Shown: piece after piece, positions 13,194 to 57,861 of the stretch
How the letters are laid out: every line of letters begins with the position of its first letter
How positions within the stretch are numbered: position 1 is the first letter of the stretch
Assembly: GCF_013009555.1 (NCBI RefSeq)
Contig: NZ_CP046176.1
Coordinates: forward strand, 3,689,501-3,753,500
Length of the DNA: 64,000 bases
Direction of reading: 5' to 3'
DNA from: Phocaeicola dorei
GTDB taxonomy: Bacteria; Bacteroidota; Bacteroidia; Bacteroidales; Bacteroidaceae
Program-made: the position numbers and the translations under genes
Notes under the pieces: model-generated
What the model saw: only the letters and a program-made list of their open reading frames with translations
What the model was told of the DNA's origin: nothing
Databases searched by the model: none

Positions 13194-15698
13194 TTACTTA
13201 CTTATTAAAACTAGCCTACCTGATTTAAGTCCTTTACCTGTTGCGGTCAGTGTAATTTCTCCCGGTTTATCGGTGCTTTGCACAACAGCAGTCATCATTC
13301 CGTTAAACACTTTCATTTGCGGAACATGGAAAAGTTCCAATGAAGTGGGGTCTCCGTTTGCACCGGCACGATAGGTTCCCGCACCTTTTACAGCATACTT
13401 GATGAGATGTTGCGCATCGGGACAAAGGTTACCTTCTTTATCCACCACTCTCACCGTGACAAATGACAAGTCCTTGCCATCAGCCTTTATTTCATTGCGA
13501 TCTGCAACCAATTCTATATGGTCGGGCTTACCTGCCGTATGGATTTCCTTTTCGGCTACAGCATCCCCTTTCTCATTGTATGCAACCACTTTCACGGTTC
13601 CCGGCTCATACTTTGTATCCATCCACATCAAACGGTAGCGTTTCTGGCGCTTGAAATCTGCTATGGAAGCAGAATCCGCACTATTTTCAGCCGTTACAGT
13701 CAAATCCTTGGTACGCTTACCCTGGCTCTTGCCATTGATAAACACTTCTGCAGACGGATAATTGGTATAGACAAAGATCGGGGTCACTTCTCCTTCACGT
13801 CCCGGCCATGTCCAATGAGGAAGGATGTGCAGTGTCTCTTCATCTTTGTTCCAATGGCTGCGGTACAAATAGTAACGGTCTTTGGGCAATCCGGCCAAGT
13901 CGATTATACCGAACAAAGAAGAATGGCTGGGCCAGTCAGTATAATAAGGAGTCGGTTCGCCCAGATAATCGAAGCCCGTCCATACGAACTCTCCGATCCC
14001 CCATGCGTTATCCTCGTGCCAAATCCAGTCGTCTTCCGGCAAATTGGACCAACCACAATGTTCCACATCGTAAGAAGAAGACTGATGATCGTCATATTTC
14101 TTCATAGCCTGACGGACAACGGGGAATTTATAGACACCACGCGAACTTACTGTAGAAGCTGTTTCACTACCTAAAATAATCTGCTGAGGCAACTTCTTAT
14201 AGTTTTCAGGATATTTATGGGGACGATAATTGAAACCGGCCACATCCATAACGGCAGCCATATTATTGTTTACCACGGCATCGGGCGCATCCATACCTTG
14301 TGTTACAGGGCGGGTGGGGTCTTCACGATGGCAAATATCCTGCAACATACGCGAGAGTTTCGGACCGTTACTGCCGCTCCACTGATCAGGTACTTCATTA
14401 CCTGTACACCACATCACAATACTTGGGTTATTACGATAGTGACGAATCAGATTCGTCAAATCCTTATCCACCCATTCATCAAATACTTTATGATATCCAT
14501 TGGCCATCTTTGCCGATTTCCATTCGTCAAAGGATTCCGCCATCACCATCATACCCATCTCGTCACAAGCCTCCACCAGTTCGGGAGCCGGCATATTATG
14601 AGAAGTACGGATTGCATTACAGCCCATATCTTTCAGAATACGAATCTGACGACGGATAGCGGCATCATTTACAGCACCTCCCAACGGGCCCAAGTCATGA
14701 TGGTTACATACTCCTTTGAATTTGGTCAATTTTCCATTCAGAAAGAAACCCTTGTCGGGGATAATCTCCAAGGTACGGATACCAAAACGAGTGGTATATT
14801 CGTCTTTCAAGGTATTCCCTTCATATACTTTGGATTCAGCCGTATAAAGAACCGGAGTTTCAGGACTCCACAACTCAGGATTGGCTACTGCAAACTCCTG
14901 TTCAAACAAAGTATTGTCAAAAACACTTAACTTGTTTTCCCCGGTAGCAACCACTTTGCCGTTTTTATCCTTAATCTGCGTCACAATACGGTAATTATCC
15001 TTATTGGCTCCTTCGGGACTAACCAAAGAAGTTTTCAAAGACACTTTTGCATATTTGTCTGTCACCACGGGAGTGGTAGCATACGTCCCCCATGTCGGGA
15101 TATGCGCATCTTCATTGATTACCAGATGAACATTGCGGTACAAACCGGCCCCCGGATACCAACGTGATGATTCAGGCTCGTTTTCCAAACGGACTGCCAG
15201 CTCGTTCTTCTCACCCGGTTTCAGATAAGGGGTCGCATCCACATAAAAGGAATTATAACCGTATGGCCAATAGCCTGCCTCCTGCCCGTTCACATAGACA
15301 CGGGCATGGCTCATTGCTCCGTCAAATATCAAAGTAGCCTTCTTGCCTTTTTCAAAACCGGGAGCATCAAAGTTCAGGCGATACCATCCGGTTCCTACAA
15401 ATGGAAGACCTCCGGTACGGCCGGCATGTTCCAGAGCCTCTGTTTGTCCATCCTGAGTGATAGCCATTTCCTGCTTGTCGTTATTGATACTGAACGGACC
15501 ATAAATCGCCCAATCATGAGGAACGGTGACGTTCTGCCATTTACTGTCATTATAACCGGGATTGGCAAATTCCGCATTATCTTCACGCGTAAATTTCCAC
15601 CCTTTTTCGAAAGTCTGCTCTGTACGTACCTGCGCTTGCATAAAAGCAAAACAACAAACAGCTCCTAACGCAGCACACAAAAATCGTTTCGTATTCAT
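13194..15698 (-). CDS. Glycoside hydrolase family 2, beta-galactosidase type
   Basis: This 834-residue exported enzyme has a signal peptide (MNTKRFLCAALGAVCCFAFMQA) and the GH2 order: jelly-roll sugar-binding domain (about 25-200), immunoglobulin-like domain (200-310), TIM barrel (310-600) and C-terminal beta-sandwich domains. The acid/base is Glu435 in WCTGNEVPDQW and the likely nucleophile is Glu512 in ILGSETAS. Family members of this size in Bacteroidetes include beta-galactosidases, and an operon with sialidase and hexosaminidases suggests removal of galactose after sialic acid. Specificity cannot be proved from sequence. It is the last gene of the operon, 2 bases after GH92. Confidence 0.85.
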   Translation of the reverse strand: MNTKRFLCAALGAVCCFAFMQAQVRTEQTFEKGWKFTREDNAEFANPGYNDSKWQNVTVPHDWAIYGPFSINNDKQEMAITQDGQTEALEHAGRTGGLPFVGTGWYRLNFDAPGFEKGKKATLIFDGAMSHARVYVNGQEAGYWPYGYNSFYVDATPYLKPGEKNELAVRLENEPESSRWYPGAGLYRNVHLVINEDAHIPTWGTYATTPVVTDKYAKVSLKTSLVSPEGANKDNYRIVTQIKDKNGKVVATGENKLSVFDNTLFEQEFAVANPELWSPETPVLYTAESKVYEGNTLKDEYTTRFGIRTLEIIPDKGFFLNGKLTKFKGVCNHHDLGPLGGAVNDAAIRRQIRILKDMGCNAIRTSHNMPAPELVEACDEMGMMVMAESFDEWKSAKMANGYHKVFDEWVDKDLTNLIRHYRNNPSIVMWCTGNEVPDQWSGSNGPKLSRMLQDICHREDPTRPVTQGMDAPDAVVNNNMAAVMDVAGFNYRPHKYPENYKKLPQQIILGSETASTVSSRGVYKFPVVRQAMKKYDDHQSSSYDVEHCGWSNLPEDDWIWHEDNAWGIGEFVWTGFDYLGEPTPYYTDWPSHSSLFGIIDLAGLPKDRYYLYRSHWNKDEETLHILPHWTWPGREGEVTPIFVYTNYPSAEVFINGKSQGKRTKDLTVTAENSADSASIADFKRQKRYRLMWMDTKYEPGTVKVVAYNEKGDAVAEKEIHTAGKPDHIELVADRNEIKADGKDLSFVTVRVVDKEGNLCPDAQHLIKYAVKGAGTYRAGANGDPTSLELFHVPQMKVFNGMMTAVVQSTDKPGEITLTATGKGLKSGRLVLISK

Positions 15699-38079: not shown

Positions 38080-39120
38080 ATGAGTTACCTAATTAAACCA
38101 GCTAACTATAAAGCCTTGCTTGATTTAAAACAAACAGAGTTAGGCATTAAGCAAATAAAAGAGTTCTTTCAACAGAACTTGTCGTCAGAATTACGTCTGC
38201 GCCGTGTCACCGCCCCGCTATTTGTATTGAAGGGAATGGGTATCAATGATGACTTGAGCGGAACCGAACGGCCGGTATCTTTCCCTATTAAAGACTTGGG
38301 AGACGCACAGGCCGAAGTTGTCCATTCATTGGCAAAATGGAAAAGGCTGACTTTGGCCGATTACAATATAGAACCGGGTTATGGCATCTATACCGACATG
38401 AACGCCATCCGGGCTGATGAGGAATTAGGTAATCTCCACTCACTATATGTAGACCAGTGGGACTGGGAGCGTGTAATTACCAAAGAACAACGCACAGTTG
38501 ATTTCCTGAAACAAATAGTAACCCGTATTTATGCAGCCATGCGCCGCACAGAATATATGGTATGCGAAATGTATCCGCAGATCAAACCCTTCCTGCCACA
38601 TGACATTCATTTCATCCACTCAGAAGAGCTTTGCCAAATGTATCCCGACAAAACTCCGAAAGAACGCGAACATGCTATTGCGCAAAAATATGGTGCTGTA
38701 TTTATTATAGGTATAGGATGTAAACTGAGTGACGGTAAAGAACATGATCTGCGTGCACCTGACTATGATGACTACACCACAATTAATCCGGAAACCGGAC
38801 TCCCCGGTCTGAATGGTGACTTGTTGGTTTGGGATAAAATATTAGACCGTTCTGTTGAGCTTTCCTCTATGGGTATCCGTGTAGACAAAGAAGCGTTACT
38901 CCGCCAACTGACACTCAGCGGACAGGAAAAGCGTAAAGAATTGTACTTCCACAAACGCTTGTTGGATGAAACTCTGCCTTTATGTATCGGCGGTGGTATA
39001 GGACAATCACGACTCTGTATGCTTTATTTACAGAAAGCCCATATAGGTGAAATCCAAGCCAGTATATGGCCCGAAGATATGAGAAAAGAATGCGCTCAAT
39101 TGGGTATGCAACTTATTTGA
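38080..39120 (+). CDS. asnA: Aspartate-ammonia ligase (asparagine synthetase A)
   Basis: This 346-residue cytoplasmic enzyme makes asparagine from aspartate, ammonia and ATP, forming AMP. It resembles class II aminoacyl-tRNA synthetase cores and matches AsnA throughout: ETELGIKQIKEFF-type start (here TELGIKQIKEFFQQNLSSEL), FPIKDLGDAQAEVVHSLAKWKR (AsnA consensus), MNAIRADE, YVDQWDWERVI and the C-terminal motif IGGGIGQSRLCMLYLQKAHIGE. Length fits the family. It is a single-gene unit with its own promoter and terminator. Confidence 0.95.
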   Translation: MSYLIKPANYKALLDLKQTELGIKQIKEFFQQNLSSELRLRRVTAPLFVLKGMGINDDLSGTERPVSFPIKDLGDAQAEVVHSLAKWKRLTLADYNIEPGYGIYTDMNAIRADEELGNLHSLYVDQWDWERVITKEQRTVDFLKQIVTRIYAAMRRTEYMVCEMYPQIKPFLPHDIHFIHSEELCQMYPDKTPKEREHAIAQKYGAVFIIGIGCKLSDGKEHDLRAPDYDDYTTINPETGLPGLNGDLLVWDKILDRSVELSSMGIRVDKEALLRQLTLSGQEKRKELYFHKRLLDETLPLCIGGGIGQSRLCMLYLQKAHIGEIQASIWPEDMRKECAQLGMQLI

Positions 39121-44590: not shown

Positions 44591-45058
44591 TCAAAAAAGG
44601 AGCCAACAACCCAATCTATTCAGGACACGCAACACCATTCCTCTGCATCCACCAAGTCCCAACCACAAACGGCTTTCCAACCGCCAACAGGCGGAATCTG
44701 TTTCAATCTTCTTTCCGGAAGGTCTGCATACCCTTCTCACCACCCCGATGATATCCGTGTCCTCACATTCCTCATAAAAACGACAAACGCCATCTCCCTG
44801 CATCAAATAACGACTGCCTCTTTTTTGAATAATCCGATGCAATACATACCGGTCTGTCTGCCGGAACAGAATGACATCAAAAAGTTTCAACTCCTCCTTA
44901 TCATACGGCCCCACCACCACTTCATCCTTCCCATTTCTCAGTAAAGGCATCATGGAATTGCCTTTCACCCGGAACTTCACACTCCTGCCACTTTTGATTT
45001 CCGACTCCACCCACGCAAAGAAACATTCATTCGCTATCCGCTTCATACCCATCTCCAT
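44591..45058 (-). CDS. S24/S26-type peptidase of the peptide operon
   Basis: This 155-residue protein has the signal-peptidase fold start: VKFRVKGNSMMPLL (Ser35) with VVVGPYDKEELKLFDVILFR and YVLHRIIQ (His74), then QGDGVCRFYEECEDTDIIGVV. The Ser-His pattern is that of the SipW/Sec11-type signal peptidases. The C-terminus is a hydrophobic stretch rich in Leu and Gly (about 130-155), perhaps a membrane anchor. It overlaps the HPr-kinase-like gene by about 30 bases; ATG 45046 (MKRIANECFF) is an alternative start. It may remove a leader from the exported peptide, although no cleavage site is proven. Confidence 0.75.
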   Translation of the reverse strand: MEMGMKRIANECFFAWVESEIKSGRSVKFRVKGNSMMPLLRNGKDEVVVGPYDKEELKLFDVILFRQTDRYVLHRIIQKRGSRYLMQGDGVCRFYEECEDTDIIGVVRRVCRPSGKKIETDSACWRLESRLWLGLGGCRGMVLRVLNRLGCWLLF

Positions 45059-45953
45059 ATAAAGTACGACATACTAATTTCACCGCCTCCGCATCGGGCA
45101 AACACTCCAGATGATAAACAGGAATGGATGAAACCATCTTTTCCAACAGACTACAAACCCCACTGTATAATTCCTCCTCGTATGCAAATGCAGGAGGAGC
45201 AGACGGATGCAAAGCTGCATAAGCCTGCAAAGTGTTCAATCTCCGTATCTTATTATACGGTGCTTGTGACAAACGTACACATCCGGCCAACGGATAACAT
45301 TCCGCCTTATAACAAGGAGTCTTCCCACTCCACGGGCTGCCATATACCCACACGCCCCCCTCTTCATAACGCACAATGGGACTGTCATCATTCAGCAACT
45401 TACTTCCTGCTATATTTTCCCTCCACAAACGAGTATGGGTACTTTTGCCGGTTCCGCTTTCACCTAAAAAAAGAACCGCTTTCCCCTTATAAACAATACA
45501 ACTGCCATGCAAGGCAACCGTATCTTTCCGTACCGTCATCAGACCATACCCCATCCATAAGGCAAATCTTAAAAGACGGGGAGAATAATGACCATATAAA
45601 CAGATACCTTTCCCAGTTTCACCCATCGTCCGGAGATAAAGCGACGGTTCTCCCTGCGGAGCCAGTTCCAACAAAAAACTATCCCCACTCACACCGAAAG
45701 TACCGGTTACATCTTCATATCCGAACCCATAGGACTTTCTCTGAAAAGCCGGAAAATCCCAACCGTTTCCCTCCCAAACAGTAAAATCCGGCAACCAAGC
45801 ACCCTCGTATACATCTTTTACCAAAACCAGATCCGGTTGCCAAATAAAAGGCTTGAAACCGCTGATACCATCCACCACCTCCATCAACCTTTCGTCCGGC
45901 AATGCGAAGCAGTGGCCACCTATTTTATAAATTTGATCCATTGTCTTTTCCAT
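45027..45953 (-). CDS. HPr kinase/phosphorylase-related kinase
   Basis: This 308-residue protein has an N-terminal region with no known enzymatic motif (1-145) and a C-terminal HprK-type P-loop domain: ALHGSCIVYKGKAVLFLGESG, Walker A GESGTGKST (164-172), LLNDDSPIV (187-195) and GSPWSGK (205-211). HprK homologues phosphorylate serine in HPr, but related kinases occur in peptide clusters, including lasso-peptide clusters such as paeninodin (from memory), where they modify the precursor. No HPr gene is here. It overlaps the ABC gene by about 29 bases (17 if ATG 45941 is used), a sign of tight coupling. Confidence 0.8.
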   Translation of the reverse strand: MEKTMDQIYKIGGHCFALPDERLMEVVDGISGFKPFIWQPDLVLVKDVYEGAWLPDFTVWEGNGWDFPAFQRKSYGFGYEDVTGTFGVSGDSFLLELAPQGEPSLYLRTMGETGKGICLYGHYSPRLLRFALWMGYGLMTVRKDTVALHGSCIVYKGKAVLFLGESGTGKSTHTRLWRENIAGSKLLNDDSPIVRYEEGGVWVYGSPWSGKTPCYKAECYPLAGCVRLSQAPYNKIRRLNTLQAYAALHPSAPPAFAYEEELYSGVCSLLEKMVSSIPVYHLECLPDAEAVKLVCRTLYGDGYEADSE

Positions 45954-47577
45954 TTAATCTGATTACACGATGACAATATGCCAATGAGCTTTCCCGATGG
46001 GCTATCGTAAGAATAGTCAGCCCCCTACACTCCTTCATCAGACTGAGAAGCATTTCATTGACAGCCCGTTCAGTCTCATTATCCAATGCAGAAGTAGCCT
46101 CATCCAGTAGAAGCACCTCCGCTTTCTTATACAAAGCACGGGCGATGCCTACCCGTTGTTTCTGACCTCCCGAAAGCCTTCCTCCCCCTTCACCCAAAGG
46201 AGTATCCATTCCTTGCGGCAATTCATCCACCCAAGCATCCAATCTCACCTGCCTCACTATCTCCGCTACCCATTCCTTATCTATAAACCGGCATCCCAAA
46301 GCAATATTTTCCGCCAAGGTCCCATCCAGCACAAACACTTCCTGTTGCACATATCCCACCTTGCGATGCCATTCCTGCCTCGGCACATCGACAAGCGGCC
46401 TGCCATCTATCCGAATAGCGCCTTTATCCGGAGTGACAAATCCCAAAAGCAGATAAAACAAGGTAGACTTACCCACGCCACTCTCACCACAGATACCTAC
46501 ATATTCCCCTTTACGAATAGTACAACAAAAATCCTTTAGAACCTCTTTACTTTCAGGATAAGCATAGGTGAGGTGTTCTATCCGTATCTCTTTTTGAAAA
46601 GAAAACGCTTCCTGCCCCCATGATGGAGAAACTGCTTCTATCCCCTTATCCCCCAACCCTTCCTCTATAATCCGCAGAGAATAGACCGCATTCTGTACTT
46701 GTGTCCAACCACCTAAGATGCCGCGCAAAGCGGGTAACAGCCGGAAAGCCGCCACAGCAAAGACACCTACCAGCGCTTTGATATCCCCTGTTCCGAAAAC
46801 GGTGAGCAAGGTCAGTCCCGATATAACTGCCATTTCGGAAAGGCAAAAAGGAAGGTGCTGTATCATTTCCAGTTTCAAACGGCTCTCACTGATTTTCCTT
46901 ATCCTCTCGGCGAATGCCTGCTGAAAAAAAGGAAACGCCGCATTCAGTTCCAATTCGGCATACCCTTTCATCGTTTCCGTGACCAGCCGGGACTGCTCAC
47001 GACGAGCCTGCTGCTCCTGCTCACCATAACGGCGCATCGGTTTCCTGATCCCCCATCCGTAAATCAACATAAAAGGCAGAAAGGCAATATACAGCATCAG
47101 TACCGTCAACGGAGCGTAAACCAACAAAGCTGCCGTCACCCATAAAATAAGCAGCAGTTCTCCTGTCATGCGAAGCAAGGGGGAAAGAAGATTTAAAGAA
47201 AAAGCATAACAAATATAATTTACCTCATATCCCAGCCGGATACTCCCCCTGCTGCGTATAAACAATAATCCCCGTTGATAGTAAGAAGTAAAGAGAGAAA
47301 AGCTGAGCCGACGGTAAAGAGACATCAGAAAATGGTTTTGAAAACGTGAAAGCCCCGCTACCAAAGCGTTTTTCACCAAAATAAAGACTATTGCCACCAG
47401 ACAAAATAACAGGGCGGCATCTTTATCCCTCCCGTCATCCAACAGAAAAAACAAGACAGGCAACAGGGCAGCGAGTCCGGCAAAGTCAAGTAATGCGCAA
47501 AGAAATACGGCACAAACCACCCTTATCCCCATTTTCCTTTCATCAGGCAACAACAAACGGCAGATTCTTTTCAACAT
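45925..47577 (-). CDS. ABC exporter (fused membrane and ATP-binding domains)
   Basis: This 550-residue half-transporter has six membrane segments (about 18-300) and an ATP-binding domain with Walker A GESGVGKST (364-372), signature LSGGQ (468-472) and Walker B LLLDEATSALD (489-499). No C39 peptidase domain lies at the N-terminus, unlike bacteriocin exporters that cleave double-glycine leaders, so leader removal must be done by another protein, perhaps the S24/S26 peptidase. ATG 47577 was chosen: it lies 7 bases after the nucleotidyltransferase stop and starts just before the first membrane helix; an 81-codon extension is an overlap artefact. It probably exports the modified peptide. Confidence 0.87.
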   Translation of the reverse strand: MLKRICRLLLPDERKMGIRVVCAVFLCALLDFAGLAALLPVLFFLLDDGRDKDAALLFCLVAIVFILVKNALVAGLSRFQNHFLMSLYRRLSFSLFTSYYQRGLLFIRSRGSIRLGYEVNYICYAFSLNLLSPLLRMTGELLLILWVTAALLVYAPLTVLMLYIAFLPFMLIYGWGIRKPMRRYGEQEQQARREQSRLVTETMKGYAELELNAAFPFFQQAFAERIRKISESRLKLEMIQHLPFCLSEMAVISGLTLLTVFGTGDIKALVGVFAVAAFRLLPALRGILGGWTQVQNAVYSLRIIEEGLGDKGIEAVSPSWGQEAFSFQKEIRIEHLTYAYPESKEVLKDFCCTIRKGEYVGICGESGVGKSTLFYLLLGFVTPDKGAIRIDGRPLVDVPRQEWHRKVGYVQQEVFVLDGTLAENIALGCRFIDKEWVAEIVRQVRLDAWVDELPQGMDTPLGEGGGRLSGGQKQRVGIARALYKKAEVLLLDEATSALDNETERAVNEMLLSLMKECRGLTILTIAHRESSLAYCHRVIRLNGKDNGSNL

Positions 47578-47584
47578 AAACCGC

Positions 47585-48700
47585 CTATTTTCGTTCCGTT
47601 TGGAAGATGGTATGGGGAGAGCGCAGATGCAACAGAATAGAAATTCCAACCCATTTGCACAGTGAAATGCGCAACACGCTGTTACACGCACGATGAGTAT
47701 GCAGCATACGTTTGGTTTTATAAACCAGAATACTCCATTTATTCTTCGCCGGAACAAACTTAGTATAGGGTGGCCGGATGATTTCCCGCAAGATTTCCTC
47801 CGCCAACCCTTCTCCTCCATATACAGGAACGGAAGTTCCTAAATAATCATTACAAAGGTGAGTCATTGCCAGCATCATATTTCTAAAACGAATATCCGTC
47901 ACTTCCTCAGGAATATGCAGGCCGTATCTATTCAGCAGGCAAGCCCAGTCGCAAAGATGATGAAGCGCCAGGCCGCGTGCGTAATGCTGGGCGGCATGAA
48001 AAGCGAGAAATACAGTATTAAAAGTGGAAGATGGAATGAAAATGGGGTATTTTCCGTCCAATTCCGCCGATACGGGTCGTAGCAGTTCTTGAAGGAGCTT
48101 ATCCATCTTCACCGCTATATGGTATGTTTCCGAATTAATGAAGGTTTTATGATTTTCTATCGGAATACCTTTATAGTAAAACATACTATGCTTTTCGGAG
48201 TGTTCAAGGTCTACCTCTATTCCTTTTTCTTCCATTAACCGGTCTGCCAGCCGGTTGGCCTCGGCATCACTTTTCCGGGAATGGTCTGCCGAATAAGTGA
48301 AGATGTCTATATCTCCCCCTTCCCTGTGCGAAGGAATGGGATAATAGGTGGAGAGGCCCACTCCTTTCAACTGGACCGTGGTAATGCCATGCGTTTTATA
48401 AAAAGCTGAAAGTTCGGCTATAGTATGGCAGTACCGCCGGTAGCGTTTTTCATAGTTCTCTACCGCCATCGCCCAGTTTAATTTCAAAGCCTTCGGGGGT
48501 TGCAAACAGGCCGGCAGGGTCTGTATTCCGTCCCATGCCAAGGCCATCACTCCCTGAGTGCAAGCTAGTTTGTAACACGCCTGCCAAAGGGCAGGAGATA
48601 TATCGGTAAAAAGGATTTCACTAACCGGCTTTGTGCTGTTCAACGCGGATCGGAGCAAGGCAAATAGCATTTGCTCCGGTTTATCGAGTATTATATCCAT
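47585..48700 (-). CDS. Nucleotidyltransferase of the peptide operon (NTP_transf_5 type)
   Basis: This 371-residue protein has the nucleotidyltransferase core: GITTVQLKGVGLSTYYP (about 105-121) and the metal-binding REGGDIDIF with Asp130 and Asp132, then a later VDLEHSEKHS. This organisation matches the large nucleotidyltransferase family that occurs in lasso-peptide clusters with an HprK-type kinase. The reaction is unknown; transfer of a nucleotide or sugar-phosphate onto a peptide or its phosphate is possible. ATG 48700 (MDIILDKPEQ), 7 bases after the PqqD stop, is used; the frame extends only to a TTG. Confidence 0.75.
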   Translation of the reverse strand: MDIILDKPEQMLFALLRSALNSTKPVSEILFTDISPALWQACYKLACTQGVMALAWDGIQTLPACLQPPKALKLNWAMAVENYEKRYRRYCHTIAELSAFYKTHGITTVQLKGVGLSTYYPIPSHREGGDIDIFTYSADHSRKSDAEANRLADRLMEEKGIEVDLEHSEKHSMFYYKGIPIENHKTFINSETYHIAVKMDKLLQELLRPVSAELDGKYPIFIPSSTFNTVFLAFHAAQHYARGLALHHLCDWACLLNRYGLHIPEEVTDIRFRNMMLAMTHLCNDYLGTSVPVYGGEGLAEEILREIIRPPYTKFVPAKNKWSILVYKTKRMLHTHRACNSVLRISLCKWVGISILLHLRSPHTIFQTERK

Positions 48701-48707
48701 TGTTATA

Positions 48708-48977
48708 TCAATCAAGTAAGGCTGAACATTTTTTTAGTGCATCTGCCCAAATCACCACATCTCTTTCGGCCTGCTCTTGAGGAATATGATAAGATTCCAC
48801 CAACACCAAGGCTGCCTCTTGTAAAGTGAAATCCTTTCCCGAAAGTCGTTTCCAAAGTAAGCAAGCGGAAAAATTAAAGGAAATAATACGGGTCAAATCA
48901 GTATCGGGAACACCTTGGTTCACAATTATTATTTCTCCGGCTATGGAGCGGAGTTTGAAATGGGGATTAAGTTTCAT
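48708..48977 (-). CDS. PqqD-family RiPP recognition-type protein
   Basis: This 89-residue protein has PqqD features: an N-terminal beta segment (LNPHFKLRSIAGEIIIVNQG), the central FNFSACLLWKRLSGKDFT and a C-terminal helical half, LQEAALVLVESYHI...DVVIWADALKK. PqqD-like domains bind leader peptides and present them to modifying enzymes. The ATG is 13 bases after the T-rich run of the hairpin terminator at 48991-49037, so this gene and those behind it should be expressed at a lower level than the peptide and lipoprotein genes in front. Confidence 0.8.
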   Translation of the reverse strand: MKLNPHFKLRSIAGEIIIVNQGVPDTDLTRIISFNFSACLLWKRLSGKDFTLQEAALVLVESYHIPQEQAERDVVIWADALKKCSALLD

Positions 48978-48990
48978 AATCTTCTAATCT

Positions 48991-49037
48991 TAAAAAAAGA
49001 AAGCCGCCCGACCTTTCGAGACAGGACGACCTTCTTT
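48991..49037 (-). terminator. Attenuating terminator inside the peptide operon
   Basis: On the minus strand the stem AAAGAAGGTCG.../...CGGCTTTCTTT is followed by TTTTTTTA. It sits between the lipoprotein gene (stop at 49090) and PqqD (start 48977). The PqqD gene has no visible promoter of its own, so it must be reached by read-through. This would give a high ratio of peptide to modifying enzymes. Confidence 0.75.
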
Positions 49038-49089
49038 TATTACAAATCACTTTCTGCCATGACTAATAACATGATAGCAAATAATTCTC

Positions 49090-51921
49090 TTATTTTTTAT
49101 AACTATCCCAACCGGTTCCTTTAAAAGAAGGAGTACCAGTCACGTTAATGATAGAGGAAGCATTTGTTATCGATGAATCAACAACCAAATTGCCGTTAAA
49201 AGTACCACCCTCAATATTCAATTCCATAGGTTCGGTGTTTCCGGTACTTTTTGATAATTCCACGTTACCATTAATAATACTAGTACCTTTAACAGTTACT
49301 TTAACTCCGTCAGTGTAGGTTGAATAGCCGCAAACATCAAATGCATATGCACCAGTTCCGGCATTAATCGTAGTATTGCTAATCAAAATATTACCACAAT
49401 TGTTACTCAATACATATAAGGCATTTAGCCCCTTCACTGTCATAGCATCCAACGTCAAATTACAGTAGTTCTGAATCATAATTTTATCATTATCACTTGC
49501 CAGTGTTCCGTTTTTCATAGTAACGGTAGAACCTTTCAACAATTGACAACTGTTCGTTTCTGTGCCAGCCGAGCCAACGGTCGGTTTAGCAAGTGTAAGC
49601 ACATGGTTGTTCAAGTCCAATTCTACAGATTGTCCACTTTGCGTTTTAAAGCCATTACAAGTAGCGTCTCCATTCAAACGTATCTTCACGTTAGCATTAC
49701 CGCTTAAGTATAAAAGTGCGGACGGATCGGAAAAAGTACCACCGGTAACAGCCAGCGATGCACCTGCACCAACCACATAAATCTTGCCATTCAGTGTACC
49801 ACCACTGATAGTCATCTGTCCCAAGTCATTGGCTGCACCATTATGACCTTCATTATCCACCACATACTGAGCGGAACCAGTCGTATTGAATGTACCTCCT
49901 TTGATTTCAGCCACATGATGATTCTGTACGGTTGCCTGAGACATATTGGTGAACGTACCGTCGTTGATGACAAGCTGGGCTCCATCATCATTTTTAATGG
50001 TATTAAGACCTCCGGCAAATGTACCACCGTTTATGATAAGTGAAGGATTCTGATGATTGGTACCACTTACATATCCATTTCGCGGATTCGTATTGGTATA
50101 ATCATAATACCCATTGGCTATCATCGAAGAATAATGCCCGTTTTGCGATATCTCCACATTTGGATTAATCGTCATCTCGCCATGATTCAGAATATTATAA
50201 TAGCTGTTACCACCTGAACTTTCTGAATTCTGACCGTTTTCCTTACTTCTAATATAGGTTCCGTCATTAAGAATTACTGTACCGTTATTATAGATACAAG
50301 TCTTCCCATGACTTACATTATCCACTGTACCATTTCCGTTGATTGTCAGTTTACTATCCTTATTTACGGTAAATGTATCACCAGATTTGTTGGTAATTTT
50401 ATGACCGTTCAAATTGATGATAACTTCCTTTGTTGCGGAAATAGTAAAATCTCCCGTCAAGTCTGTGGCAAGAGTATAAGTTCCACCATTTTTTGCGACA
50501 TTTTGCAAGTCGGCTACGGCAGCATCAACTACTTCAAATGCGTCATTACCGGACAGATTGGGTAATTCAGCCCCCTCTTCTTTATAAATAATGACAGTTG
50601 AAGTGTTACCGCTTTCACGAATAATGGCTGTTACTTTGGCACCACTCTTCACTCTTACATTACCGGCTTTTACCTTCAATGTATTAACCGTAATCCCTTT
50701 ATCAAGAACCAATGTATTTGCAGCAGTAGTTGCCGTTACTTCATCATAAGTAGCTGTTTCGCCATTGGCAGCCAAAGTTACGGTAGAAGAAGGCAGCTCT
50801 ATCTCAAATTTAGGCGCAGTATCTAATTGCGGTACAGATACCAACACGTTTTCAGGTGCTGAATTACCACTAGCGCCAGTGCTCGCTTCTTTTATAGCAA
50901 CAGTAGCAGTAGTAGAAATATTTTCAAAGGATATGCTGACATTTTCTGCCGGTGTATTTTTTTTCGGTATTGAAACTGTAGGACTGGCTTCAGTTGGAGC
51001 CACATCAGTCACAGAAACCGAATTAGTTGTTGCTAAAGCATCGGCTACCGCTGATACACTTTCAACTGTTGTCGGTACACTTCCGGATACTTCGTCCAAC
51101 GTTATAGTTGTGGTATAACGTTCGTTACGTTTAGCATCTAAAGCTTTTGTCTTTAAAACCTGGCTTGTAGAGCCATTACCAATGGAAAGTTCCAAGGCAG
51201 GATACTCGGCTACAGGCAACGGGAAATAGAATGTTTTACTGGTCACGTCATTGCCAGCAGTAAAGTTTATAGTTATGGAAGAGGAATTTAATGTTCCTGT
51301 GGTTGTCAATGTAGGGATACCTTCGGCGAATGCTATTTGTGCATTTCCTGCAATGGCTGGAGCAGTAGTTCTTTCTCGAGCGGTCATAGAAGTCAATTTC
51401 GCCCAAATATAGTCCTTCGGGATATTATTGACAGTTACGCTCATCAAAGCACCTGCATTTTTAAATGCCAAGACATCCTGTGCGCTCTCATTTATTTGGC
51501 AAGCCATAAGAGCACTGCTGTTTTCTCCTTCCTTATAATTATAGGTATCCTTCAACGTTAATGATATTTTACTTCCATCATAAGAAGCATCGCTGCCATA
51601 AGGATAAAAAGCAGCTTTCTTTACAGGATTCTCACCTTCCAGTACTCCTGAGAACCCTGCGTTCTTGGTCCCGGCTCCACTGGATAATGAATAATTAGTG
51701 TTAGTATATGTAGAAGAACTTCCATTCGTTACAAAAATGCCAATCTCGTCACCTGTACTCCAAACGACAGAATTGCCATTCATAGCAGTACGCGATTCAG
51801 CATCTCCCATAGTGGCACATACTTCATCAACGCCACTTTTCGCCACGCCCAAATCTTCATTGGAACAACCGGTTATTCCTAATCCAAGAACAGCCAAAGA
51901 TGTGAACAATATCTTTTTCAT
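49090..51921 (-). CDS. Fimbrillin-like lipoprotein with beta-helix region
   Basis: This 943-residue lipoprotein (lipobox LGITGC, Cys19) combines two folds. Residues about 30-280 resemble fimbrillin/Mfa-type domains (ESRTAMNG, VVWSTGDEIGIF and KAAFYPYG). Residues about 460-930 are a right-handed beta-helix of short repeats rich in Asn, Gly and Thr (INLNGHKITN, LTINGNGTVDN, LIINGGTFAGG, LVINDGTFTN, AEIKGGTFNT, MTISGGTLNG), as in surface adhesins. A Thr/Ser-rich linker joins them. It is exported to the cell surface and may present or anchor the small peptide encoded in front of it; that is inference from the 30-base gap. Confidence 0.8.
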   Translation of the reverse strand: MKKILFTSLAVLGLGITGCSNEDLGVAKSGVDEVCATMGDAESRTAMNGNSVVWSTGDEIGIFVTNGSSSTYTNTNYSLSSGAGTKNAGFSGVLEGENPVKKAAFYPYGSDASYDGSKISLTLKDTYNYKEGENSSALMACQINESAQDVLAFKNAGALMSVTVNNIPKDYIWAKLTSMTARERTTAPAIAGNAQIAFAEGIPTLTTTGTLNSSSITINFTAGNDVTSKTFYFPLPVAEYPALELSIGNGSTSQVLKTKALDAKRNERYTTTITLDEVSGSVPTTVESVSAVADALATTNSVSVTDVAPTEASPTVSIPKKNTPAENVSISFENISTTATVAIKEASTGASGNSAPENVLVSVPQLDTAPKFEIELPSSTVTLAANGETATYDEVTATTAANTLVLDKGITVNTLKVKAGNVRVKSGAKVTAIIRESGNTSTVIIYKEEGAELPNLSGNDAFEVVDAAVADLQNVAKNGGTYTLATDLTGDFTISATKEVIINLNGHKITNKSGDTFTVNKDSKLTINGNGTVDNVSHGKTCIYNNGTVILNDGTYIRSKENGQNSESSGGNSYYNILNHGEMTINPNVEISQNGHYSSMIANGYYDYTNTNPRNGYVSGTNHQNPSLIINGGTFAGGLNTIKNDDGAQLVINDGTFTNMSQATVQNHHVAEIKGGTFNTTGSAQYVVDNEGHNGAANDLGQMTISGGTLNGKIYVVGAGASLAVTGGTFSDPSALLYLSGNANVKIRLNGDATCNGFKTQSGQSVELDLNNHVLTLAKPTVGSAGTETNSCQLLKGSTVTMKNGTLASDNDKIMIQNYCNLTLDAMTVKGLNALYVLSNNCGNILISNTTINAGTGAYAFDVCGYSTYTDGVKVTVKGTSIINGNVELSKSTGNTEPMELNIEGGTFNGNLVVDSSITNASSIINVTGTPSFKGTGWDSYKK

Positions 51922-51951
51922 ACGTGTATGTTTTTAAATTATTTATTTCAA

Positions 51952-52071
51952 TTACCAAGGATGTTGGTCATAGTCTTCTGTTCCACCACTTACTGCAAAT
52001 CCTTTTTCCACTTCTACTTCGATAATCTCCACTTTAGGAGCCTCATACATTTCCATATTGTTTGTTTCCAT
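51952..52071 (-). CDS. 39-residue precursor-like peptide
   Basis: This 39-residue peptide begins METNNMEMYEAPKVE, continues IIEVEVEKGFAVSGG and ends TEDYDQHPW. It resembles short acidic peptides seen in many Bacteroidales genomes, with the pattern P-x-V-E-x-I-x-V-E-x-E-x-G-F-A-x-S-G. The first 30 residues are leader-like and end in Gly-Gly; the last nine are short and polar, with Thr31, Tyr34, His37 and Trp39. It is the first gene of the operon with PqqD, kinase, nucleotidyltransferase, exporter and peptidase, so it is the best candidate substrate. No cleavage or modification can be seen directly. Confidence 0.6.
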   Translation of the reverse strand: METNNMEMYEAPKVEIIEVEVEKGFAVSGGTEDYDQHPW

Positions 52072-53799: not shown

Positions 53800-53892
53800 A
53801 TGAATGTGAATATGCTGCATATAAATTTTCAACCAAAACAATTATGGATTGCCGATGAAAAACTTAAATGTCTAATACATGGTTTAGATTAA
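53800..53892 (+). CDS. Possible 30-residue peptide or gene tail
   Basis: A short plus-strand frame, MNVNMLHINFQPKQLWIADE then KLKCLIHGLD, ends at 53890-53892 and is followed directly by a strong terminator. The terminator suggests a real transcript end. It may be the tail of a truncated gene; no family is recognised. Confidence 0.3.
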   Translation: MNVNMLHINFQPKQLWIADEKLKCLIHGLD

Positions 53893-53918
53893 GGAGAGGA
53901 TTTTTCCTCTCCTTTTTT
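53891..53918 (+). terminator. Terminator in front of the silent hsdS cassette
   Basis: AAGGAGAGGA (53891-53900) and TCCTCTCCTT (53905-53914) form a perfect 10-base stem with a TTTT loop followed by TTTT. It ends one base before the 70-bp recombination arm and would block transcription into the silent hsdS. Confidence 0.85.
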
Positions 53919-53919
53919 C

Positions 53920-53989
53920 CTTCCGATACGCCCCATTATCCCTATTTGTTACCAAATGGGTGGGAATGGTGCAATTTAGAAGATATTGT
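53920..53989. repeat. 70-bp inverted repeat, left copy (hsdS exchange site 1)
   Basis: I compared all 70 bases and they are the exact reverse complement of 57576-57645. They code for SDTPHYPYLLPNGWEWCNLEDI, the boundary of the first target-recognition domain. Confidence 0.95.
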
Positions 53990-54587
53990 TTCTTTTGGTG
54001 GAGGTAAAACTCCGTCAATGGATAATAAAGAATATTGGGATAATGGGAATCATCTATGGGTAACTTCTAAAGATATGAAGTATAGCTATATTACAAACTC
54101 CCTGATGAAAATCACAGATAAGGCCTTGGAAGTAATGACAATATATGAGAAAGGTACGTTACTTGTAGTAACACGTAGTGGCATATTAAGACATACTCTT
54201 CCTCTTTCTATATTAGAAAAGCCAGCTACAGTTAACCAAGATTTAAAAACTATTTCACCCCATATACAGGAGCTTTCTGAATATCTGTATGTTGTTATTA
54301 AAGCTAACGAACACTTTATCTTAAAAGAATATCATAAAGATGGAACGACAGTAGATAGTATTGATTTTGATAAGTTCAGATGCTTACCGATTCCTTTAGC
54401 TCCTATCGCAGAGCAAAAACGTATAATTGTTGAGACAAAGCGTTGGTTTGCTTTGATTGACCAAGTCGAACAAGGAAAAGTCGACTTACAAACTACAATT
54501 AAACAAGCTAAGAGTAAAATTCTTGGCCTCGCTATTCACGGCAAACTCGTGCCGCAAGACCTAAATGACGAGCCAGCCATTGAACTA

Positions 54588-54635
54588 TTGAAGCGCATAA
54601 ATCCCGACTTCACACCTTGTGATAACGGGCATTAT
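54588..54635. repeat. 48-bp inverted repeat, left copy (hsdS exchange site 2)
   Basis: These 48 bases are the exact reverse complement of 56933-56980. They lie in the central conserved region, LKRINPDFTPCDNGHY, between the two recognition domains. A further 29-base shared block lies just upstream. Confidence 0.95.
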
Positions 54636-54639
54636 ACAC

Positions 54640-54661
54640 AGTTGCCTGAAGGATGGGCTAT
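54640..54661. repeat. 22-bp inverted repeat, left copy (hsdS exchange site 3)
   Basis: These 22 bases are the exact reverse complement of 55494-55515 and code for QLPEGWAI at the start of a second recognition domain. Confidence 0.85.
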
Positions 54662-55102
54662 TTGTAAAATGAAACAGATTACAAGTATAACGAATGGGAA
54701 GTCTCAAAAAAATGTTGAAACACTTAACGGTATATATCCAATTTATGGTAGTGGCGGTGTTATAGGTAGAGCTAATCAGTATCTTTGCATCGCAGGTTCT
54801 ACAATAATTGGAAGAAAAGGTACAATTAATAATCCTATATTCGTAGAGGAACATTTTTGGAACGTTGATACAGCTTTTGGCTTGAAGGCTAATGATGCTA
54901 TACTTGATAAATATCTGTATTATTTCTGCTTATCATTTGATTTTAGCAAATTAGATAAAAGTACGGCTATGCCCAGTTTAACAAAAACATCTATTGGTAA
55001 TGTTTTAATACCCATACCGCCATATAAAGAGCAAGAACGAATTGTGGCTAAAATAGATATGGTGCTTGATACGATGAATGAAATATTACGGGCTGTATAA
55101 AC

Positions 55103-55530
55103 AATCCGTTTTTGTTCTGCCTTCGGTGGTATAGGTATCTCTTATTTTGAGTATTCAGAAATCCAATATCGTTTATGAGTGTCACCTATCAATCTGGTTA
55201 CACTCATAAACATTGCCACATAATCAATCTCAATATCACTGTGTATTTTTAGAATCTTCATTACTGATGATTTTACCTTGAAAGGAAAAACAACTAGTTT
55301 TGAATCTGTTGTAAAATCATCAAAGATTATACAAGGAAGATTTGAGCATATCCCTGTCGTTTCATTGGTATAACCAATTATAAAAGACTTACCTGCGGTT
55401 AAGACTGGTATTGAGTAGGAATCATCATAAGCCGTTGAATTTATAATATAAGCAGTAGGTTGTTCATAATCTACAACTTATTCAAGCCTGCACATAGCCC
55501 ATCCTTCAGGCAACTTCTTATCATGTTCGA
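55103..55530 (-). pseudogene. Decayed third HsdS recognition domain
   Basis: On the minus strand the sequence reads KLPEGWAMCRLE, stop, VVDYEQPTAYIINSTAYDDS, then YSIPVLTAGKSFIIGYTNET, and later YWISEYSK, stop, EIPIPPKAEQKRIV. This is a single S-subunit recognition domain of the VVDYEQPT...PVLTAGK...GYTNET type. Two TAA codons (at 55478-55480 and 55142-55144) break it. It lies between the silent hsdS and the recombinase and is partly bounded by exchange site 3. It could still supply sequence by recombination but not a working domain unless repaired. Confidence 0.85.
55494..55515. repeat. 22-bp inverted repeat, right copy (hsdS exchange site 3)
   Basis: Exact reverse complement of 54640-54661, at the LPEGWAM start of the decayed recognition domain. 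Confidence 0.85.
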
Positions 55531-55576
55531 TATATTCTCTTATATTGTTACTGTATTCATTATAAATCAATGTAGT

Positions 55577-56380
55577 ATGGTAACAAAATTCAAAAATCAT
55601 TTGGCAAAGACTAATCTCGCCAAGAACACCGTTACATCGTATGTGTGGACGGTACAGTATTTCCTCAATCATTATGGAGAAGTAAACAAGAAGAACCTTT
55701 TGGCATACAAGGGGTATTTGGTGGAGAACTTCAAACCACAGACGGTTAACCTGCGATTGCAAGGAATTAACAAGTATCTGGAGTTTACGAAACAAGAAAA
55801 ACTAAAAGTGAAGTTCGTAAAAGTACAGCAAAAGAACTTCTTGGAAAATGTAATCAGCGATGCTGATTATAAATTTCTTAAAGCCCAACTTAAAGTAGAT
55901 GGTTATGAGGAGTGGTATTTTATTGTGTGGTTTATGGCGGCTACCGGAGCACGTGTTAGTGAATTACTCCACATCAAAGCGGAACACATTAAAGTGGGCT
56001 ATCTTGATTTATATAGTAAAGGCGGAAAGATTCGACGACTATACATCCCCAAGAATCTACGGACAGAATCTGAAAAATGGTTGAAAAACCAAGGCTTGAC
56101 ATCCGGTTACATCTTCCTGAATCGTTTCGGACAGCGTATTACTACTCGCGGAATCGCTTCCCAACTCAAGCATTTTGCAGAAAAATACGGAATGAACAAG
56201 GAGGTAGTTTATCCTCATTCGTTCCGTCACCGTTTTGCCAAAAACTTCCTTGACCGCTTTAATGACCTTGCTCTACTAGCCGACCTAATGGGGCATGAAA
56301 GCATAGAAACTACACGCATCTATCTACGTCGCACTGCCAGCGAACAGCAGAAGATTGTGGATAAAGTGGTTAACTGGTAA
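55577..56380 (+). CDS. Tyrosine recombinase of the hsdS shufflon
   Basis: This 267-residue protein has an N-terminal SAM-like DNA-binding domain (about 1-90: FKNHLAKTNLAKNTVTSYVW) and the catalytic domain with Arg in ATGARVSELL, Lys in the SKGGKIRRLYIP hairpin, HSFRHRFAKNF (His-x-x-Arg), GHESIETTRIYLR (His and catalytic Tyr). ATG 55577 was chosen to match family length. It lies inside the invertible locus, between silent and active hsdS copies, like recombinases of other Bacteroides hsdS shufflons, and is the likely enzyme for inversion at the repeats listed here. Confidence 0.92.
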   Translation: MVTKFKNHLAKTNLAKNTVTSYVWTVQYFLNHYGEVNKKNLLAYKGYLVENFKPQTVNLRLQGINKYLEFTKQEKLKVKFVKVQQKNFLENVISDADYKFLKAQLKVDGYEEWYFIVWFMAATGARVSELLHIKAEHIKVGYLDLYSKGGKIRRLYIPKNLRTESEKWLKNQGLTSGYIFLNRFGQRITTRGIASQLKHFAEKYGMNKEVVYPHSFRHRFAKNFLDRFNDLALLADLMGHESIETTRIYLRRTASEQQKIVDKVVNW

Positions 56381-56390
56381 AGTCGCATCA

Positions 56391-56425
56391 GCCTTTAGAA
56401 GTGTATTCATTTACACTTCTAAGGC
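56391..56425. terminator. Bidirectional hairpin between recombinase and active hsdS
   Basis: TTAGAAGTGTA (56395-56405) and TACACTTCTAA (56412-56422) form a perfect 11-base stem with a six-base loop; ATTTT follows on the plus strand. The minus-strand arm includes the last codons of hsdS, so coding and stop signals overlap. Confidence 0.7.
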
Positions 56426-57817
56426 ATTTTGAATGTTATCAAGAACAGAGAATAGTTCTTCTATCTTTTGAACAATGCGTTGTTGTTCGGCAAGTGGAGG
56501 AAGTGGCATTTCAATTTTATGTAAAGCATTGGAAGATAGTCCAAGTAATCCAATACCTTTCCCTCCTATCAGATTGTTTTCCTTTAAATATGCAAATGTG
56601 TAGTAATAAAATGGCACACATAAATCTATCTTTGGACGAAGTCTATGAATATGATTTTGAATGCAAATATCGTAATCATAATTCCATATTGCAGAGCGTC
56701 CAATATCTCCACCTTCGCATACAAGTAAATCACCCTTCGTAACAGTGCATTTATTCAATTCGCTTTCTTTGAATGGCATTTGTTTTATTGCTGTAAAATC
56801 AAACTTATTCCAGTACACATTGGATGTGGTTAAATAATCCTTGAATATACCTTCTTTGTTTGACGAATTGAGTGCTTTGCCTGTATTGTGGCTAAAAAGT
56901 TCTCCTAGAATAGTTTCTATCCATCCAACGGGATAATGCCCGTTATCACAAGGTGTGAAGTCGGGATTTATGCGCTTCAACAGTTCAATGGCTGGCTCGT
57001 CATTCGGATCTTGCGGCACGAGTTTGCCGTGAATAGCAAGATTGAGGATTTTACTTTTTGCCTGCTTGATAGTTGTTTGTAAATCTTCCTTGCTATTCTT
57101 GATAGTATCAATTAAAGAAATCCACTTGGCCACCTCTACAACAATTCTTTCTTGTTCCTTTAAGGGTGGGATAGGTATCATTAATTGCGAAAGCTTTTGA
57201 GCATTGATATTAGACTGATTAACAGCATCCGTTTTTACATTATAGCACCAATTACGATAATAGCTGCTATTCATTACAGTATTAAGGTAGTCTGAAAAAA
57301 TCAATATCGGTCTAATGCGAATAAGATAGCCAGCATATATGGCTGGTTGTTCTTTCTTATAGATTGCCGTTTTCCCTACCCATTCACTACTGTTTGTGCG
57401 ATTGAACAGTAAATCGTCTTTTTCAAGTGAGTACAGCTTAATATCTTCATTATTTGACGAATACACTAAATTAGAATAATCGATTGTACCGACATTAGTA
57501 ATATTCCCCATTCGCAAGACAGCTATTTTTCCCACACTTAAAGACTTCTCTGAAGTTCCGTATTTCAATTCGCACACAATATCTTCTAAATTGCACCATT
57601 CCCACCCATTTGGTAACAAATAGGGATAATGGGGCGTATCGGAAGACTTTGCAGACTTCTTACTCCGTTTGATTTTGCCTTCTTTTATCAGTCGTTCTTT
57701 TTCAGCCTTGATTCGTTCGAGCAGAACTGATGCTGGTTCATCGTTGGGATCTTGGGGTACAAGTTTTCCATGTATCGCAAGGTCGAGTATCTTTTGACGT
57801 AACGCTTTTGTATCCAT
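56411..57817 (-). CDS. hsdS: Type I restriction-modification specificity subunit (active copy)
   Basis: This 468-residue S subunit has two recognition domains (about 60-215 and 290-430), each followed by the conserved dimerisation helix: IPIPPLKEQERIVVEVAKWI and LPPLAEQQRIVQKIEELFSV. Repeated AIHGKLVPQDPNDEPA segments (near 12 and 262) mark the two-fold symmetry. ATG 57817 (MDTKALRQKILDLAIHG) is used. It gives sequence specificity to HsdM and HsdR, whose genes lie upstream on the same strand. It is the only copy with a start region, so it is the expressed one in this orientation. Inversions at the listed repeats would replace one or both domains. Confidence 0.93.
   Translation of the reverse strand: MDTKALRQKILDLAIHGKLVPQDPNDEPASVLLERIKAEKERLIKEGKIKRSKKSAKSSDTPHYPYLLPNGWEWCNLEDIVCELKYGTSEKSLSVGKIAVLRMGNITNVGTIDYSNLVYSSNNEDIKLYSLEKDDLLFNRTNSSEWVGKTAIYKKEQPAIYAGYLIRIRPILIFSDYLNTVMNSSYYRNWCYNVKTDAVNQSNINAQKLSQLMIPIPPLKEQERIVVEVAKWISLIDTIKNSKEDLQTTIKQAKSKILNLAIHGKLVPQDPNDEPAIELLKRINPDFTPCDNGHYPVGWIETILGELFSHNTGKALNSSNKEGIFKDYLTTSNVYWNKFDFTAIKQMPFKESELNKCTVTKGDLLVCEGGDIGRSAIWNYDYDICIQNHIHRLRPKIDLCVPFYYYTFAYLKENNLIGGKGIGLLGLSSNALHKIEMPLPPLAEQQRIVQKIEELFSVLDNIQNALEV
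56933..56980. repeat. 48-bp inverted repeat, right copy (hsdS exchange site 2)
   Basis: Exact reverse complement of 54588-54635, inside the active hsdS between its two recognition domains. Confidence 0.95.
57576..57645. repeat. 70-bp inverted repeat, right copy (hsdS exchange site 1)
   Basis: Exact reverse complement of 53920-53989, inside the active hsdS where its first recognition domain begins. Confidence 0.95.
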
Positions 57818-57835
57818 CGTTATATTTCTGTTTGT

Positions 57836-57861
57836 AATTGTGCAGTTTTGGCTGCACAATT
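57836..57861 (-). other. Hairpin in the hsdS leader
   Basis: AATTGTGCAG and CTGCACAATT form a perfect 10-base stem with a six-base loop between the stop of the DUF1016 gene and the hsdS start (57817). No T-run follows on the minus strand. It may be an mRNA processing or attenuation site that tunes S-subunit level. Confidence 0.55.

Follow-up and report, generated by a model that had tools for sequence, protein, structure and literature searches.

A cyclase-free, lasso-like kinase cassette in Phocaeicola dorei and a conserved family of candidate peptide substrates in the Bacteroidales

The closest described relatives of the system reported here are lasso-peptide clusters with kinases. In lasso-peptide precursors the leader motif YxxP is recognised by B1 proteins, and the HprK-like lasso kinase BsfK phosphorylates exactly Ser3 of BsfA, accepts threonine and is sped by the protein BsfB1 (PMC10368454). 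In pseudomycoidin, a nucleotidyltransferase puts hexoses on the phosphate (PMC8498205). Within the Bacteroidales, a 2023 survey of ribosomally synthesised and post-translationally modified peptides (RiPPs) describes systems with a GG motif and a peptidase-containing ABC transporter (PCAT) (PMC10352776). Here, we analyse a seven-gene locus of Phocaeicola dorei, on the minus strand of a 64,000-nucleotide stretch of DNA that we call the window (assembly GCF_013009555.1, contig NZ_CP046176.1, positions 3,689,501 to 3,753,500). We think it rather probable that this locus represents a cyclase-free, lasso-derived and partly trans-acting RiPP-type system, the products of which would be phosphorylated, exported peptides paired with lipoproteins. 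A search of the open-access literature found no description of such a system.

We found that the seven open reading frames (ORFs) reported by a first-pass annotation of the window are all present, at the place and on the strand that it gave. They encode a 39-amino-acid precursor-like peptide (51952..52071), a 943-amino-acid lipoprotein (49090..51921), a PqqD-like protein (48708..48977), an NTP_transf_5 nucleotidyltransferase (47585..48715), an ABC exporter (45925..47577), an HprK-like kinase (45027..45953) and an S26-type peptidase (44591..45058). The likely start of the exporter gene is the ATG at 47577, instead of the start at 47820 given by the ORF caller. The same annotation placed all seven genes in one tight order. 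This is correct for the five enzyme genes, which overlap or nearly abut, but not for the peptide and lipoprotein genes: the gap between the lipoprotein and PqqD genes measures 112 bp and contains a terminator-like hairpin (48995..49038, minus strand; -22.5 kcal/mol, z -3.7). A consensus terminator scan recovered a shorter version of the same hairpin, a result that is weak alone, as the scan returned 9 sites versus 7.4 expected. Given the hairpin and the gap, the peptide and lipoprotein genes look like a unit separate from the five-gene enzyme cassette.

The small peptide belongs to a family with a conserved leader and variable tails. In the window peptide the leader, YEAPKVEIIEVEVEKGFAVS, spans Tyr9 to Ser28 and is followed by the tail GGTEDYDQHPW; the leader pattern of the family is YxxPxxExxEVxxExGFAxS. 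We aligned 9 peptides (A1) and then 31 (A2) from the surroundings of kinases in sampled genomes of the same bacterial family, and compiled leader statistics from the 59 non-redundant peptides that an A2 profile search of the examined loci returned, counting the leader Tyr as position 1. All 59 of these profile-selected peptides have the Tyr and a Pro three residues on, and 53 have Glu at position 14. At position 20 (Tyr+19), 48 have Ser and 2 Thr, giving Ser/Thr in 50/59; a further 6 have Ala and 3 another residue, and beyond this position residue variability climbs. At the Leu position of YxxPxL, Leu is rare (V 31, T 8, C 7, M 4, I 4, L 3, two unlisted), and position 16, the lasso -2 position, is occupied by G (38), M (9), V (3), I (2), N (1), A (1) or, in five peptides, another residue; inspection by eye found no Thr at this position among the 59 listed peptides. 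In lasso numbering, position 20 corresponds to core residue +3. Because this is the spacing of the Ser3 that BsfK phosphorylates in BsfA, the Ser or Thr at Tyr+19 is the predicted acceptor, which in the window peptide is Ser28 (codon 51988..51990, minus strand). Both the YxxP leader and the serine at Tyr+19 go beyond what the first-pass annotation had noted.

We considered whether the peptide might be a mere upstream reading frame, and rejected this because between-species changes are mostly synonymous. The first 30 codons of the window and Phocaeicola sartorii peptides differ by 10 synonymous and 2 non-synonymous changes, and 22 codons compared with the P. faecalis peptide differ by 7 and 1, respectively. 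Weaker evidence of constraint comes from a genome (G149) with nine peptide-lipoprotein pairs in about 51 kb around one split cassette: leaders there are near-constant while tails differ, and the leaders of all pairs summed give 138 synonymous versus 124 non-synonymous differences. The peptide profile found nothing at E<=0.1 among 12,140 reversed decoy ORFs, and matched in 21 of 80 real kinase loci at E<=0.01. Four peptides searched against NCBIfam gave no significant match, the nearest being that of one peptide (locus L041) to a paeninodin-family precursor model (E 0.11; 12.3 bits versus a cut-off of 27). A search of the window's own genome for the VExGFA motif found three more places, each within a longer unrelated ORF. 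By eye, no signal peptide was seen in the family peptides.

The peptide and the kinase tend to occur in the same genomes. In a sample of 151 genomes from the family (kinase profile at E<=1e-5, peptide profile at E<=0.01), we found the kinase in 122 and the peptide in 106; of the 122 genomes with the kinase, 102 also had the peptide, compared with 4 of the 29 without it (Fisher p 1.6e-12). This association persisted within genera (cross-table of both, kinase only, peptide only and neither, 102/20/4/25: Cochran-Mantel-Haenszel test by genus, p 4e-4; within-genus permutation, p 3e-4) in tests that had five informative genera and excluded eight kinase-negative genomes of unknown genus, and the genomes at least 95% complete gave a table of 51/8/1/12. 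A sample of 295 genomes from the order, with the kinase taken at E<=1e-30, yielded 12/7/4/272; minus four listed family members the table was 10/7/4/270, that is, the peptide in 10 of 17 kinase-positive versus 4 of 274 kinase-negative genomes (p 1.7e-11). In 247 genomes sampled across the phylum, 8 had a kinase at E<=1e-15, strong in the window's own genome and one other (G152) only, and peptides were found in just these two.

The peptides are also enriched near kinase genes. The 106 peptide-positive genomes of the family held 450 peptide matches, which is roughly one per megabase over all 151 genomes. Of 150 listed peptides, 20, spread over 17 of 53 genomes, lay at most 7 kb from a kinase gene, with about 0.9 expected for a 3.2-Mb genome carrying 1.3 kinases. 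We also analysed 80 named loci picked by the kinase alone, 1.33 Mb in total, some of which overlap with the sampled genomes (L095 matches G062). A profile built from 15 peptides, each encoded on a different contig from the kinase, matched in 19 of these 80 loci and in no decoy; about one peptide would be expected in 1.33 Mb, on a slightly different E-value scale. A peptide was present in 11 of the 14 loci that contain PqqD, nucleotidyltransferase and ABC genes, versus 10 of the other 66. Thus, the comparison of neighbourhoods proposed in the first-pass annotation did reveal a conserved short-peptide gene in homologous loci. The annotation's picture of one gene set with one peptide needs amending: no peptide was recognised near the kinase in 59 of the 80 loci, some of them truncated at contig ends, and many peptides are dispersed. 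A single-cluster RiPP with one peptide was rejected on account of this dispersal in relatives; with peptides often encoded elsewhere in the genome, the enzymes of many relatives would act in trans. The named relatives are gut and rumen Bacteroidales.

Peptide genes are commonly followed by a lipoprotein gene. The window lipoprotein has a lipobox (ITGC) and, by eye, GGTF-type repeats; the earlier label of fimbrillin or beta-helix protein could not be confirmed, as the protein had no Pfam match at E<=0.1. Of five such lipoproteins searched against Pfam, only that of L049 scored above a cut-off (GLUG). For the 57 peptides with enough flanking sequence (the other 2 of 59 lie at contig ends), a same-strand ORF begins within 250 bp in 51 cases, and in 44 of the 57 it bears a lipobox as called by our own rule. 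By comparison, a lipobox occurs in 106 of the 1049 ORFs in the 80 loci that encode 100 amino acids or more. Because the pairing also holds at sites without a cassette, the product probably does its job at the surface with its lipoprotein; adhesion, signalling and interbacterial competition are all candidate roles for the pair.

The enzymes of the cassette were identified with varying clarity. The PqqD-like protein matched PF05402 (38.1 bits, cut-off 23.4), as the earlier annotation had it. Searched against PDB sequences, a PqqD profile (A5, 16 sequences) found as its best match TfuB1 (6jx3, E 1.5e-6), followed by TbiB1 (E 0.0018), both of which we take to be lasso-peptide B1 proteins; a further match was a protein named lasso PqqD chaperone. 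The nucleotidyltransferase call was likewise borne out (PF14907, 176.9 bits, cut-off 31.2), and K117, G118, D135, D137, H176, H189, H240, H244 and D256 are invariant among 15 aligned sequences. So was that of an ABC exporter lacking a C39 domain: ABC_tran (PF00005) scored 115.7 bits, ABC_membrane matched below its cut-off and C39 was unmatched, and the best NCBIfam matches shown were exporter families, all below cut-off.

The HprK-related label of the kinase is supported by its catalytic residues but less so by Pfam, in which HprK-like and related P-loop models matched only below cut-off. PF27840 is annotated on many homologues of this kinase and was unreported in the scan of the window kinase. 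The catalytic positions of the window kinase, His149, Gly164, Gly167, Gly169, Lys170, Ser171, Asp189 and Asp190, all correspond to the published motif of BsfK, H148-G163-G166-G168-K169-S170-D186-D187; in an alignment of 21 sequences (A3), H149, G167, G169, K170, S171 and D190 are invariant, and G164 and D189 are conserved in at least 90%. Together with the TfuB1 match, this agrees with the earlier view that the parts are lasso-like. Against PDB sequences the kinase profile gave a marginal match to HPr kinase (1ko7, E 0.007) with ABC transporters close behind, and among the matches listed, from which nearest records may be omitted, the closest named kinase was that of P. sartorii (81% in the best segment). 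The S24/S26 assignment of the peptidase fared similarly: both families matched and S26-type motifs are present, but the Pfam scores fell below cut-off. In NCBIfam the closest model was the archaeal-type signal peptidase TIGR02228 (30.4 bits versus a cut-off of 51.85), and the profile (A6) matched signal peptidase I (E 2.5e-4). The peptidase has the motifs GxSMxP, HR and GD; among 77 sequences, Ser35 and His74 occur in 99%, and GxSMxP and GD, taken with these two residues, in 97 to 100%.

We next consider how regularly these enzymes accompany the kinase. Within 6 kb of the kinase and on the same strand, the 80 loci, some cut by contig ends, contained the peptidase in 71, the ABC exporter in 53, PqqD in 47 and the nucleotidyltransferase in 16. 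The commonest gene orders, written with P for PqqD, N for nucleotidyltransferase, A for ABC exporter, K for kinase and S for peptidase, were AKS (20), PKS (16), PNAKS, which is the window's (8), and PAKS (6). As the nucleotidyltransferase is optional, nucleotidyl tailoring is not core to the system. As reported earlier for this locus, no Asn_synthase cyclase and no transglutaminase-like (B2) protease occurs among the 17 window ORFs scanned (34220-60414), and a genome-wide search for a cyclase was not made. A Pfam census of neighbouring genes in 14 loci covered 97 of 103 listed ORFs and excluded six likely antisense or overlapping ORFs, ORFs longer than 850 amino acids and core genes; of the 169 families that it returned, the 25 commonest included neither a cyclase nor a B2 protease of these kinds, and no recurrent extra enzyme. 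The previous idea of a kinase- and nucleotidyltransferase-tailored peptide that is not a lasso thus keeps its kinase and its missing cyclase, while the nucleotidyltransferase part applies to a minority of loci.

From the gene content, the conserved leader, the co-occurrence, the pairing and the conserved catalytic residues, we infer the following scheme. The PqqD-like protein, as a lasso-B1-like RiPP recognition element (RRE), would bind the small peptide at its YxxP leader and aid the HprK-like kinase in phosphorylating the Ser or Thr 19 residues past the leader Tyr. In loci that have it, the NTP_transf_5 enzyme may cap the phosphate, perhaps with a hexose by analogy with pseudomycoidin. The S26-type peptidase, with its Ser/His pair, is predicted to be the leader peptidase, replacing the transglutaminase-like lasso protease and cutting near the Ser at Tyr+19. 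The ABC exporter, lacking C39, would carry the product out, and the exported product would work with the lipoprotein encoded directly downstream of the peptide. In many relatives, a single cassette may serve several peptide-lipoprotein pairs elsewhere in the genome.

Several observations weigh against this scheme. At the locus itself, the hairpin divides the peptide from the enzymes, and the genome contains a single recognised peptide. PqqD and the nucleotidyltransferase are missing from many kinase loci, and most of these loci lack a recognised peptide. At Tyr+19, 6 of the 59 peptides have Ala, and the conservation of the leader motif stems partly from selection, as the profiles that found family members held the motif. 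Likewise, the first peptide profile was partly seeded beside kinases, which inflates the 20/150 proximity result. Genomes are related and hence non-independent, so that the Fisher values are inflated, and the stratified test has only its five informative genera. Exceptions run in both directions. In the family sample, no peptide was found at E<=0.01 in 20 of the 122 genomes with a kinase, and two of the 4 kinase-negative genomes with a peptide are 94 and 99% complete; in the order sample, the peptide is missing from 7 of the 17 genomes with a kinase and present in 4 without one (98, 99, 89 and 65% complete). The likeness to BsfK was drawn from its published motif, and the shared spacing of the serine could be coincidence. 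In BsfA, replacing Tyr(-17) or Leu(-12) with Ala had no effect on phosphorylation, and the Pro variant precipitated (PMC10368454); the Tyr mattered less to the kinase reaction than to other steps. With the leader Tyr dispensable for phosphorylation, YxxP binding need not control the kinase. Finally, other lasso kinases, the characterised paeninodin-type ones, target a C-terminal Ser (PMC8498205, PMC10368454).

Some of these observations would be expected if the peptides were dedicated partners of the lipoproteins, acting as regulators, chaperones or surface components instead of cassette substrates, with their joint occurrence reflecting merely that both are frequent in these lineages and surface loci. 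The 44 of 57 peptides that precede a lipoprotein-like ORF, also at cassette-free sites, the hairpin between the two units and the kinase-negative genomes that retain peptides (4/29) are all in keeping with this. We nevertheless regard it as unlikely, because co-occurrence holds within genera, peptides are enriched beside kinases with a profile made from dispersed peptides only, the leader has the YxxP recognised by lasso B1 proteins and the PqqD-like protein is closest to TfuB1, and the peptides appear by eye to have no signal peptide while the cassette supplies an exporter. HPr-rel-A genes occur in exopolysaccharide loci, and the cassette might, like them, modify another target, such as a polysaccharide or its carrier, next to which the peptide is incidental. 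Four loci (L007, L049, L054 and L057) do lie, by eye, in capsule or exopolysaccharide regions, and a nearby peptide is absent from most of the 80 kinase loci. However, L049, L054 and L057 also encode a YxxP peptide with a lipoprotein ORF behind it, and both the peptide-kinase co-occurrence and a lasso-B1-like PqqD, which suggests a peptide ligand, make this explanation quite improbable.

We give still less credence to a scheme in which the conserved N-terminal part is itself the product, cut after Ser20 and phosphorylated on that C-terminal Ser in the manner of paeninodin, with the tail discarded or transferred. Residues 18 and 20 are mostly small, like those of a signal-peptidase site, for which small residues at -3 and -1 are the rule. 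Yet 8 of 59 peptides have Pro directly after Ser20, and Pro right after the cut makes a poor site for signal-peptidase-type cleavage. A conserved N-terminal part with a variable tail is moreover the usual leader/core pattern, and YxxP is a lasso leader motif; the paeninodin kinase, in turn, does take a C-terminal Ser with little other specificity (PMC8498205). Least probable of all is a true lasso system with its cyclase and leader protease encoded elsewhere in the genome. Everything from the recognition element and the kinase motif to the nucleotidyltransferase, the exporter and the YxxP leader is of lasso type, but neither missing protein turned up in the scanned window ORFs or the commonest neighbour families, and position 16 is mostly Gly or Met. 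A true lasso cluster at this locus was rejected for the lack of a cyclase, a B2 protein and a Thr at -2 in the scanned ORFs and peptides.

The favoured reading, of a cyclase-free system that phosphorylates and exports lipoprotein-paired peptides, can be extended, more tentatively, to the Bacteroidales in general. One lasso-derived cassette might phosphorylate, and in some species glycosylate, many dispersed YxxP-leader peptides in trans and export them for display, sensing or assembly with cognate surface lipoproteins, as a cyclase-free class found in most sampled genomes of the family; we consider this possible, although the odds are somewhat against it. If the peptides are kinase substrates, these bacteria would be making phosphorylated, exported peptides linked to surface lipoproteins, a large class that has yet to be catalogued, and lasso-peptide recognition and kinase modules would be operating without macrocyclisation. 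Searches keyed to a lasso cyclase, a radical S-adenosylmethionine (SAM) enzyme or a GG/PCAT pair could miss such peptides, so that a peptide system of some size may have gone unnoticed. The reading makes a specific prediction: phosphorylation of the Ser 19 residues past the leader Tyr.

Further features accompany the peptide family and the window. In a subclass of peptides with GFMAAS, GFMSAS, GFMKAS or GLLKAS, the Ser is shifted by one residue (Tyr+20) and tails are longer (L057:15208-15393, L073:1441-1644, L079:1498-1713, L082:1486-1680 and L084:1492-1683); by eye, some of its members sit in exopolysaccharide-type loci. Dispersed peptides of several genomes share tails of the type RRGxWGxLW or similar (L072:671-868, L083:1444-1620, L085:1501-1668 and L090:1438-1611), which suggests a common C-terminal element. 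The scanned neighbours of the locus include, by Pfam, an HD-domain protein, NamZ, uracil-DNA glycosylase, AsnA and type I restriction genes. The AsnA-type aspartate-ammonia ligase (38080-39120, PF03590) is not of the Asn_synthase family to which lasso cyclases belong. At 53868-57859, two opposed Methylase_S (type I specificity) genes surround a phage-integrase-type gene, an arrangement that looks like an invertible, phase-variable HsdS locus. A second, divergent cassette lies elsewhere in the same genome, in a locus that is capsule-like by eye (L007, C1:1909000-1925000, at 5896-14630, minus strand). By eye, it contains an ABC exporter, an NTP_transf_5 enzyme, two PqqD proteins, an S26 peptidase, an HprK-like kinase with NGD for NDD and two SPASM-like radical SAM proteins. 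Two neighbouring proteins of about 130 amino acids begin YQKP and YTKP and contain the sequence VAAC, whose Cys falls precisely at Tyr+19, so that they resemble a second family of YxxP precursors in which Cys replaces Ser.

Among described systems, two others combine an HprK-like kinase with a PqqD-like protein. The HPr-rel-A system (TIGR04352 kinase, TIGR04353 PqqD) has an HprK-related kinase and a PqqD-like peptide chaperone, but we rejected membership as the window kinase scored 17.9 bits versus a TIGR04352 cut-off of 200; the window PqqD had no match at E<=0.1 in NCBIfam, TIGR04353 included, and a relative's PqqD reached 16.7 versus 35. The SynChlorMet cassette (TIGR04248/TIGR04249) has the HprK-like ScmC and the PqqD-like ScmD and resembles the second locus of the same genome, with its radical SAM proteins. 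Membership was again rejected, since the window kinase scored 16.1 bits versus the TIGR04249 cut-off of 125; the window's cassette also lacks a radical SAM protein. The GG-motif/PCAT clusters of the Bacteroidales share with our locus a short precursor and an ABC exporter, but pair a peptidase-containing exporter with the GG motif; a term search of that survey's text met the word kinase only within histidine kinase and gave no occurrence of nucleotidyltransferase, S24 or S26 (PMC10352776).

The strongest resemblance is to the phosphorylated or phosphoglycosylated lasso clusters of paeninodin, pseudomycoidin and BsfA, with which the locus has in common a PqqD-type B1 protein, a YxxP leader, an HprK-like kinase, a nucleotidyltransferase and an ABC exporter; with BsfK and BsfA it further shares the eight catalytic residues of the H-G-G-G-K-S-D-D motif and the spacing of the serine. 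Unlike lasso clusters, it has no detected cyclase or B2 protein and no Thr (rarely Ile or Val) at -2, an S26-type peptidase stands in place of B2, and the precursors are often dispersed and paired with lipoproteins. What the locus does present is the general make-up of an RRE-dependent RiPP system: a short precursor with a conserved leader and a variable core, encoded near an RRE, a tailoring enzyme and an exporter.

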